From contig QQNF01000009.1 of NCBI GenBank assembly GCA_003402705.1, positions 1-64,000 on the forward strand: a stretch of DNA of 64,000 nt, given 5' to 3'. Under the pieces are notes generated by a model. The model made no database searches and was not told the DNA's origin. It worked only from the letters and a program-made list of their open reading frames with translations. The position numbers and the translations under genes were made by a program. This DNA is from Verrucomicrobiota bacterium. GTDB lineage: Bacteria; Verrucomicrobiota; Verrucomicrobiia; Verrucomicrobiales; V1-33. Below are positions 3,573-7,037 of the stretch, one piece after another (within the stretch, counting starts at the first letter, position 1; the number at the start of each line of letters is the position of its first letter).

Positions 3573-4817
3573 ATGATGAGGAAACTGCTATTGCTCGCGG
3601 CCATCGGGATGGTGGCGCATGGTGGTGTGACGCCGACGAGGGCGGAGGGGCAGACGAGAGGGGAGTTGATGGCAGTGATTGAGCCTGGGGAGCGAGGTGA
3701 GGCGTGGCTGGAGATCCCGTGGGAAACGGATTTGACGGTGGCGCGGCGGAAGGCGGCGGCGGCAGGGAAGCCGGTGTTTTTGTGGGAGATGGACGGGCAC
3801 CCGCTGGGGTGTACATGAAACAATGGGGTGGCGGACCGTGAGTTCGTCTTTTCCGATCCGGCGGTGCAGCGACTGATCCGGGAGAAGTTCATCCCATTGG
3901 CGATGGATGACTGGTATTTGCGTCGTCAGAAGGATGCGCAGGGGAAGTTTTTCATGGAGATGACGCGGGAGAGCCCGCGAGGGAATGCGGGGGAGGGGAC
4001 CCGGCAGGGTCGGTATGTGTTTACGGCGGGCGGGAAGTTTCTGGGGTTCAACAACAACCGGAGTCCGGAGCGATTGCTGGCGATGCTGCGGGAGTCGATG
4101 GGGCGCTGGGAGAAGCTGCCGGCGACGGATCGGGCAGTGCCGGGGGATTTAGGGGATGTGGTGCGGGAGGCGCGGTATGAGCGGCGGCCGCCGGCCGGTG
4201 GGGCGGTGGTGAAGGTTTTCACGCGGGTGCTGGAGCGCGGGGCGGACGGTGCGTTGCGGGCGGTGAGTGAGCCTGAGCGGAAGGAAGATGATTTCCGGCA
4301 TCGTGGGTTGGAGGCGGCGGTGGATCATCTGTGGCTGACGGCGGAGGATGTGAAGGCGCTGCTGCCGAAGGAGGGAGCGCCGATGGGGGTGGCGATGGCG
4401 GTGCCGCGGGCGATCGGGCAGCGGGTGGCGAGGTATCATCTGGTGGACGGGACGCGGGGGGAGCCGCCGCATTGGAGTCGGGAGGAAGTGAAGCTGGCGG
4501 AGTTTTCGGTGATTCCCGAGGGGAAGGGTCTGGCGAAGCTGAAGGGTCGGGTGAAGATGGAGACGGCGGATGGGAAGCGTGGGTTCGAGGGGGAATTGGA
4601 AGGGGAGATGGCGCATGGTGGAGGGCGTCTGGAGCGGGTGGAGGCGGTGGTGATTGGGGAGCATTGGGGGGAGAGTGCGTTGACGGCGGGGGCGCGGCCG
4701 GGGAGATCGCCATTGGGTTTTGCGTTTCGGTTGAATGAGGGGAAGCGGCCGGCGGATGTGATTCCGCCGCAGGCGGCGCGTTGGCTGGACGGGTATTACG
4801 AGCCGGACCGGAACTGA
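3573..4817 (+). CDS. Secreted thioredoxin-like protein with one in-frame UGA (candidate selenoprotein or disrupted gene)
   Basis: Two stretches lie in exactly the same frame, divided only by TGA at 3816-3818 (codon 82). Joined, they give 414 residues. A signal peptide (MMRKLLLLAAIGMVAHGG) is followed by a thioredoxin-like segment: AAGKPVFLWEMDG, then HPLGCT-UGA-NNGV, then ADREFVFSDPAVQRLI and EKFIPLAMDDWYL. This resembles the beta1-CxxC-alpha1-beta2 part of thioredoxin-like periplasmic proteins, with the UGA two residues after a Cys where a second redox residue is expected. Coding character continues to 4817 with no other stop. The later C-terminal domain of about 250 residues is not one I recognise. 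Possible explanations are selenocysteine insertion, a nonsense mutation, or a sequencing error in a TGC/TGT codon. I saw only a weak hairpin after the UGA (CGGA pairing with UCCG), not a convincing SECIS. Confidence 0.65.
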
Positions 4818-4867: not shown

Positions 4868-5070
4868 GCGAAACAGGCTGCGCTACGGTGCATGGAATGC
4901 GGTGAAAACCCGCAACAGTGTGCGCTGCTGTAACCGGCTACGAGCTTCCAGGGTGTGGCGGAACGGTCTTTCCGTCCATGCCCGCAAACCAATCGCGGCG
5001 GTCCTGCAAAGGATTGCGGTGGTGAAGGCGGGGGTGAGGATTGAAGCCGGGAGTCAGAATACTTCGCCGG
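4868..5070 (+). promoter_or_regulatory. Cobalamin (B12) riboswitch
   Basis: The 324-base gap before the surface-protein gene contains hallmark adenosylcobalamin-aptamer pieces in order: GGTGCATGGAATGCGGTGAAAA, ACCCGCAACAGTG, CTGTAACCGG, and the B12-box-like GGAGTCAGAATACTTCGCC at about 5050-5068, preceded by GAAGCCG. About 70 bases separate it from the ATG at 5142. Those bases hold two small hairpins (CCGCATGCTGCGG; CTTAT...ATAAG) but no U-run, so control is more likely at translation initiation than by a classical terminator. It predicts repression of the downstream operon when B12 is plentiful. Outer boundaries are approximate. Confidence 0.85.
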
Positions 5071-5141
5071 AGCAATTCAATCCTTCTGAGCCGCATGCTG
5101 CGGGTTGGGGGACCTTATCGAAACAATAAGTGTGAAGTATC

Positions 5142-7037
5142 ATGAAACAAAACTCTCTGGCTGCTGAGGGCGGCCGGTGGGCGGCTGCGGCCGTCCTTTT
5201 AATGACTGCTGGTGCGGGACGCGGCGCGGTGAGCCTGACGGATGTGCGCTGGTGGGCTGGGAGCCCGGCCGGGCCGGGGGTGAGTGAGGCGGCGCTGGTG
5301 ATTGACTGGCGGGATGGGACGCCGGGATTGGTGTGGGGATACCGGTGGCCGAGTGAGGAGAGCCGGACGGGACGGGACATGCTGGAGGCGGTGTTAGGGC
5401 TGGACCCGGGGCTGACAGTGGACAGCACATTTTTTCCGGGGACGATGGCGTGGGGCGGGCGGAGCCGGAGTTATGACGATGCGGGAACGGCGTCGTATCT
5501 GGATGACCGGTACTGGAATTACTGGGTGAACAATGAAGTGTTTCTGCACCCGACGGATTTCATTCAGAACGGGCATGTGGTGCCGCCGGCGACGGTGGTG
5601 GTGCCGCTGGGGAGTCCGTTTGGGAGTGGGCGGTGGGTGGAGAGCCCGACGGGGCTGGCGGATCGGCCACTCGTGAACGGGTCGTGGGACGGGTGGGCGT
5701 TCGGGGAATACGGGTCGCTGCCGGGGGTGCCGGCGGCGGTGCCGGAGCCGGGCGTGTGGGGGATGGTGGTGACGGGGTTTTGTGTGTTAGCGATGCGGCG
5801 GCGGCGGGTGGTGGCGGTGGCGGTGGCGGTGGCGGTGCTGGGGATGGGAGTGGGGCCGGTGGCGGCGAGCGGGCCGTATGCGCCGGGGCCGGGGCAGGTG
5901 GGGAGTGATGCGGTGGCGGCGGGGAGTGGGGCGATCCGGTCGTGGGCGACTGGGGTGGCGGCGTTTCTGCCGGGGTTGCAGCGGAAGGGGTCGGCGAGCA
6001 CGGCGACGGCGAACTACGGGAGTACTGCTAGTGTTTTAGGGCCGACAGGGATTACGGGGACGGACGGGGATTATCCGATGGCGGGGGGCGGGGGGACGCC
6101 GGGGGCTCCGGTGTTGAGTCTTGGGGATGGCGGGAGTGTGACGGTGACCTTTGCGCGGCCGATAACGGATGGGGCGGGGGCGGATTTTGCGGTGTTTGAG
6201 AATGGGTTTGCGTCCGGGGCGCTGGTGTTTGCGGAGCTGGCGTTTGTGGAGGTGAGTTCCAATGGGAGTGATTTCTTCCGGTTTCCGGCGGTGTCGTGTA
6301 CGGCGACGGGAGTGCAGGTGGGGGCGTACGGGGCGGTGGATCCGAGGAATCTGCGGAATCTGGCGGGCAAGCATCCGGCGGGATGGGGGACGCCATTTGA
6401 TCTTGCGGAGCTGGCGGCGGTGTCGCCGCTGCTGGATGTGAGGCGGGTGACGCATGTGAGGCTGGTGGATGTGGTGGGGTCGGTGACGGGAGCGATCGGG
6501 TCGAGGGATTCGCTAGGGAATCTGGTGAATGATCCATTTCCGACGCAGTTTCAGACGGGAGGGTTTGATGCGGATGCGGTGGGGGTGATGAACGAGGCGG
6601 TGGATGCGTGGGCGGCGTGGGTGGAGGCTGGGTTTCCGGTGGGTCAGCGAGGGGATGCGGCGGTGAGCGGGGCGCTGGCGGATCCTGACGGGGACGGGTG
6701 GCCTAACTTTGCGGAGTATGCGTGCGGCGGGCGGCCGCTGGAGCGTGAGGGGCAGCCGTTGCTGCGGGTGAGTGCGGGTGCGGGCGGGGTGGTGCTGGAG
6801 TTCACGCGGCTAGGGGAGCGGGGGGATGTGCGGTGGCGATTGGAGATGTCGGAGAGTGGAGGGGCGTGGGTGCCGGTGGTGGAGAGTGCGGGTGGTGCGA
6901 GGGCGGAGGTGATGGCGGGCCGGGAGGTGGTTGTTAGTGGAGTGACGGAGAGTGGTGGGGCGGTGGTGACGGTGCGGGTGACGGTGCCGTTGGCGGGGGC
7001 GCGGGTGTTCCGGTTGAAGCTGGAGCGGCAGCCATGA
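5142..7037 (+). CDS. Cobalamin-regulated surface protein: PEP-CTERM protein fused to a second exported protein
   Basis: The 631-residue product has three parts. Residues 1-29 are a signal peptide. Residues 30-200 are a Trp/Gly-rich domain ([11 protein letters not shown]) ending in a PEP-CTERM-like tail: VPEPGVW at about 200-206, a hydrophobic helix, then four Arg at 219-222. The frame does not stop there. It continues through [14 protein letters not shown] and [10 protein letters not shown], which look like a second signal peptide, into a domain (about 245-490) with motifs [30 protein letters not shown] and [13 protein letters not shown] associate that domain with exported proteins encoded near B12 genes. 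The end ([15 protein letters not shown] and onward) is a common verrucomicrobial C-terminal domain. The upstream riboswitch points to a role in B12 capture or a B12-sparing response; that role is inference. Confidence 0.75.
5811..5834 (+). repeat. GTGGCG hexamer microsatellite at the protein-fusion junction
   Basis: Four tandem GTGGCG units encode (Val-Ala)4 exactly where the PEP-CTERM tail of the first unit meets the signal-peptide-like start of the second. A unit length of 6 keeps the frame, so slippage changes only the length of the hydrophobic segment. Confidence 0.8.

Follow-up and report, generated by a model that had tools for sequence, protein, structure and literature searches.

Locus and reading frame

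The window is a stretch of 64,000 nucleotides from contig QQNF01000009.1 (assembly GCA_003402705.1) of an uncultured bacterium of the Verrucomicrobia group, represented by a metagenome-assembled genome (MAG) that is 75% complete. At 3573–4817 it carries a gene with an in-frame UGA, which is read here as selenocysteine (Sec, U) in a thioredoxin-like (Trx) selenoprotein of a new family; the probability of this sequence-based reading is about 0.95. With TGA taken as U, translation gives one continuous protein of 414 residues with a single internal TGA. Residues 80–86 read C-T-U-N-N-G-V. The second ATG, 3576, is the more probable start codon, because a 94%-identical close relative has ATT at the codon matching the window's first ATG (3573). 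The central features are as follows.

3576–4817, + strand: predicted selenoprotein gene, 413 amino acids from ATG 3576; in-frame upstream ATG at 3573; UGA as Sec, codon 82 when numbered from 3573; own TGA stop at 4815–4817.
3816–3818, + strand: in-frame UGA (Sec82), invariant in 41/41 aligned members; placed by profile alignment at the first Cys of the CxxC motif of Thioredoxin_7-type proteins.
3830–3848, + strand: hairpin of the bacterial selenocysteine insertion sequence (bSECIS) type, stem 3830–3836 with 3842–3848, apical loop CGUGA 3837–3841, 18 nt after the UGA.

Conservation of the UGA codon

Homologues were found in 16 of 57 related genomes in the first search, and every clear family member spanning the site has an internal TGA. 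The UGA column is invariant in an alignment of 22 translations with identity down to about 24%. The TGA is retained in homologues of 24–95% identity and is therefore not due to chance. A profile search recovered the family in 75/387 genomes of the order, often in several copies (more than 90 gene copies). An in-frame TGA is present in essentially every match of the order that covers the active site; matches scored as having none start downstream of it. The active-site column is TGA in all 41 aligned members, which belong to many genera. A sample of 388 genomes of the phylum added one family member, again with TGA, and distant CxxC proteins. The contig scan with patterns outside the active site recovered no more than six relatives.

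No Cys version or other sense version of the family was found among the genomes searched, all of the window's phylum, and within them the family looks Sec-only. W50, W71, G75 and P77, all before the UGA, are conserved together with it. Relative to a 95%-identical homologue, dN/dS is 0.06 before the UGA and 0.21 after, which indicates that purifying selection acts on both flanks. The initial annotation, made from the letters of the window, had proposed a candidate new selenoprotein with a TGA at 3816–3818 in a frame open to 4817; translation, conservation in homologues and purifying selection bear out the frame, and the conserved UGA, the sel genes and the covarying hairpin support the candidate. 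Its suggestion that relatives should have either UGA or Cys (C-x-C) in this column holds for UGA; the Cys relatives were not found. Several family paralogues occur per genome in G032, G474, G542 and G633, including a GETUNNG subfamily with the hairpin further downstream.

SECIS hairpin

Counted from the UGA, nucleotides 15–21 pair with 27–33 in a stem of 7 bp. Published limits of a bSECIS are a loop of 3–9 nt with G in the first two positions, a stem of 4–16 bp, a distance of 16–37 nt from the UGA and a minimum free energy (MFE) of at most −7.5 (PMC13188914). The hairpin lies within all of them (CGUGA, 7 bp, 18 nt, MFE below the cut-off). MFE is −8.1 kcal/mol for the hairpin alone and −11.3 kcal/mol for 41 nt.

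Over 23 distinct sequences 97.4% of the stem cells are paired; slid versions of the hairpin are only 15–52% paired. Stem covariation is 0.575 vs 0.254 in shuffled alignments (0/500 shuffles as high) and is strong in the first sequence set too. Two-sided changes, 18 in total, occur at four of the five stem pairs. Synonymous-codon shuffles favour the hairpin (combined Z −5.0), with single members varying. The loop codon is fixed against codon usage in each class: CGT in 12/12 (usage 13%), AGG in 23/23 (11%), TCA in 5/5 (9%). A diverged subfamily has the hairpin further downstream, with a GGUC loop 31 nt after the UGA. In this GGUC class the same Arg codon varies, the hairpin being elsewhere; as an internal control this shows that the constraint on the loop codon acts on the RNA. 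Hairpin types cluster on the protein tree, where three changes suffice. The Rfam model SECIS_1 has no match in the window's own genome and none in control genomes either, and is uninformative. The initial annotation had seen no convincing SECIS after the UGA, which the ordinary stability of the hairpin explains; the check it had suggested, for a conserved hairpin in the 60 bases after the UGA, comes out in favour, with a hairpin that covaries.

Selenium machinery

The window's own genome has selA and a tRNA-Sec with UCA anticodon (selC). Its selB is split over two contig ends, with the GTP-binding part on one and the remainder on the other. Of the sel genes named for a search in the initial annotation, selD is the one not found here; the three genus-mates have it. 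In the order sample selA occurs in 70/75 family genomes vs 48/312 others (Fisher p 1.6e-38, a guide only, the genomes being related to each other). Among high-quality genomes (≥90% complete, ≤5% contaminated) selA is present in 46/46 with the family, and the family in 0/197 without selA. The family is carried by 70/118 selA genomes of the order; it is so common among Sec-decoding members that it may partly explain the retention of Sec decoding in the order.

Among the selD matches, which include L047 and L048, those of eight related genomes have an in-frame TGA of their own, which is absent from the selD of genus-mates G001 and G003. In G032 and G047 selD lies within open frames of about 750 codons, which suggests a fusion.

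Protein architecture and active site

The protein comprises the following parts.

3576–3647, + strand: probable N-terminal export signal (MRKLLLLAAIGMVAHGG...TRA), predicted from the sequence; modelled with low confidence; similar leaders in relatives.
3693–4124, + strand: thioredoxin-fold domain, about residues 41–184, with U-N-N-G active site; AlphaFold2 predicted local distance difference test (pLDDT) mostly >90; fold matches and hhalign agree.
3810–3812, + strand: C80, the sole Cys of the protein by count, two residues before Sec (−2); a candidate for the resolving residue.
4146–4814, + strand: C-terminal beta-barrel-like domain without recognised family; AlphaFold2 pLDDT 88, predicted template modelling score (pTM) 0.86; no Pfam match to this member.

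The AlphaFold2 model of the whole protein has mean pLDDT 88.5 and pTM 0.88. Its N-domain matches PDB 3f9u with Z 13.7 and root-mean-square deviation 2.8 over 125 residues (VIA-align). Further fold matches are ERp18 and AGR proteins (Z about 12), the DsbD C-terminal domain (about 10) and, among the weaker ones, glutathione-peroxidase structures (about 6). The best structure match of the C-domain by VIA-align, Z 6.9, is within the chance range and not decisive. Foldseek alone gave no significant match for either domain, and a sequence search of the PDB no credible relative.

The model has the topology of a thioredoxin fold: strand 68–73 is followed by U82 and then by helix 83–92, so that Sec82 lies immediately before the helix after the first central strand. 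In an hhalign alignment with CxxC proteins from the order (E 6.8e-12 over 131 columns) U82 corresponds to the first Cys and G85 to the second, and the S-x-P motif lies the same number of residues from U as it does from the first Cys of the CxxC proteins. The UGA thus stands where a redox Cys is expected in such a fold, as first proposed. The family has a four-residue insertion before the active site; the FPT (cis-Pro) segment is missing, with a conserved T-x-Q-G-x-Y in its place. Among 41 members an upstream Cys stands at −2 in 33, at −1 in three and at −4 in four; one member has none. Of the C-x-U motif given in the initial annotation, U is invariant and Cys at −2 is common; the Cys itself moves between positions. 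W71, N84 and Q145 are conserved; from them a candidate catalytic tetrad like the one in glutathione peroxidase (Sec, Gln, Trp, Asn) was considered.

Proposed mechanism and alternative explanations

SelB and tRNA-Sec would decode UGA 3816–3818 as Sec, directed by the bSECIS hairpin 3830–3848. In the thioredoxin active site Sec82 would be the nucleophile, standing where the first Cys usually is, with Gly85 in place of the customary downstream resolving Cys. The upstream Cys (C80 here) probably resolves oxidised Sec as a Cys-Sec bond; this mechanism is somewhat favoured. The protein is probably exported, judged by its leader, and would reduce a peroxide, a disulfide or a similar oxidised substrate outside the cytoplasm, the substrate perhaps being bound by the C-terminal beta-barrel-like domain. 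No conserved gene neighbourhood was found beyond the own genus, and there is therefore no operon clue to the substrate. A broader picture is offered tentatively: an enzyme family of Verrucomicrobiales with a thioredoxin-fold domain that cannot do without Sec, a resolving Cys shifted from downstream to variable upstream positions and a beta-barrel domain that presents the substrate, for an extracytoplasmic redox reaction beyond the reach of Cys.

Several observations weigh against Sec insertion or against parts of this scheme. The hairpin is no more stable than shuffles (z −0.5), synonymous-codon shuffles fold equally well in L005, L009, L014 and L017, and the covariation counts are inflated by relatedness of the sequences. 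The 75%-complete bin yielded no selD, although it is present in all three genus-mates. No selA was detected in five family genomes, all of them less complete or more contaminated. L058 has no Cys within 5 residues, so that a resolving role of Cys fails there. The support is computational: it consists of UGA conservation, the covarying hairpin, co-occurrence with selA, the position in the thioredoxin fold and the pattern of partner Cys, from which Sec insertion itself is inferred, as are export, redox chemistry and substrate.

A nonsense mutation or a sequencing or assembly error in an ordinary gene, which the initial annotation had still allowed for, is practically refuted. The reading of this 75%-complete MAG does hang on a single base, but this codon is TGA throughout independent genomes of many genera (41/41 members), between flanks under purifying selection. 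Two genes or a regulated stop, with a short peptide terminated by the UGA and another gene from GTG 3828, would accord with the 329-residue frame that opens there. This arrangement is hardly credible: the export signal, the first helices and the first Trx strand are all encoded ahead of the UGA and conserved together with it, translation from 3828 would break into the active-site helix, and the hairpin downstream covaries at bSECIS spacing. The frame would stay open equally if the UGA were read as another amino acid, whether through near-cognate suppression or in a variant code with Trp or Gly for TGA. Such readthrough is very improbable, since TGA is a true stop at the matching C-terminus in this gene and many relatives (TAA or TAG in others), the residue occupies the catalytic Cys position, the family tracks selA and there is a bSECIS-like hairpin downstream of the UGA.

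The remaining alternative accepts Sec and concerns its chemistry: the enzyme would be peroxidase-like and use an external thiol, the upstream Cys being incidental. It is consistent with the lack of a downstream Cys, the replacement of the FPT cis-Pro segment of Trx_7 by T-x-Q-G-x-Y, the glutathione-peroxidase structures among the weaker fold matches and the one member without any nearby Cys. A Cys at most four residues upstream in 40/41 members speaks against it, and it is considered rather unlikely.

Relation to known families

A plasmid collection gave no match. No model of Pfam or NCBIfam reaches its cut-off for the family, and no such motif or domain is among the 119 selenoprotein families inventoried in 2026 (PMC13188914). 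The family is thus not described in Pfam, NCBIfam or this inventory; it may have been described under another name or in unpublished work.

Closest are the VPGUxxT families, types 1 and 2 (NCBIfam NF041382, NF041383; hypothetical protein OS_HP5), with a Trx-like N-domain, Sec at the first Cys and the same spacing to S-x-P. The profiles match with E 3.4e-07 over 62 columns, both occur in the same bacterial order, and by this match the VPGUxxT families are homologous to the present family in the Trx domain. They differ in the C-terminal part, keep the second Cys (UAGC) and lack the four-residue insertion before the active site. Members of the present family score 14–25 bits against cut-offs of 275–350; for NF041383 (cut-off 275 bits) the window protein scores 14.2 and the best, a distant member, 24.7. 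The VPGU(C) motif at Sec is absent from the window protein, which has GHPLGCTU. Ordinary Cys versions of VPGUxxT exist, whereas none was found for the present family: in the same order type 2 has Sec (VPGU) in L066 and L070 and Cys (IPGC) in L067–L069.

Thioredoxin_7 and DsbD C-terminal-like CxxC domains (Pfam PF13899) have the same fold and can be aligned over the 131 columns given above. The window protein scores 18.1 bits against a gathering cut-off of 27, with sub-threshold matches to 13/22 members. The present family differs by Sec at the first Cys, Gly at the second, loss of the FPT cis-Pro segment and an extra C-terminal domain. The thioredoxin-like selenoprotein Sec.1 (PF13192; CxU type, PMC13188914) shares the C-x-U spacing with most members; it was compared by listed domain and motif only, and differs in that PF13192 gives no match and that the position of the partner Cys varies here (−1, −2 or −4). 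Selenoprotein A of glycine reductase (GrdA) is likewise without known Cys homologues (PMC1794560), but is an unrelated protein of an unrelated pathway.

Standard annotation would be expected to cut the gene at the UGA or to start it after the UGA, and search methods that rely on Cys/UGA pairs would miss the family. The authors of deep-Sep warn about families without Cys homologues (PMC12013277). Selenoproteins that seemingly never revert to Cys are rare, and help to ask what Sec does beyond Cys.

Neighbouring and related-genome observations

A cobalamin riboswitch (Rfam RF00174, 40.7 bits) lies at 4869–5085 on the + strand, directly 3′ of the selenoprotein gene and upstream of an open reading frame at 5142–7037. 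The first part of the product of this frame contains a PEP-CTERM-like stretch, and a second hydrophobic segment comes after it. In a related genome, L073 encodes at 1501–1857 a Sec-containing protein like methionine sulfoxide reductase A (GMGUFWG).
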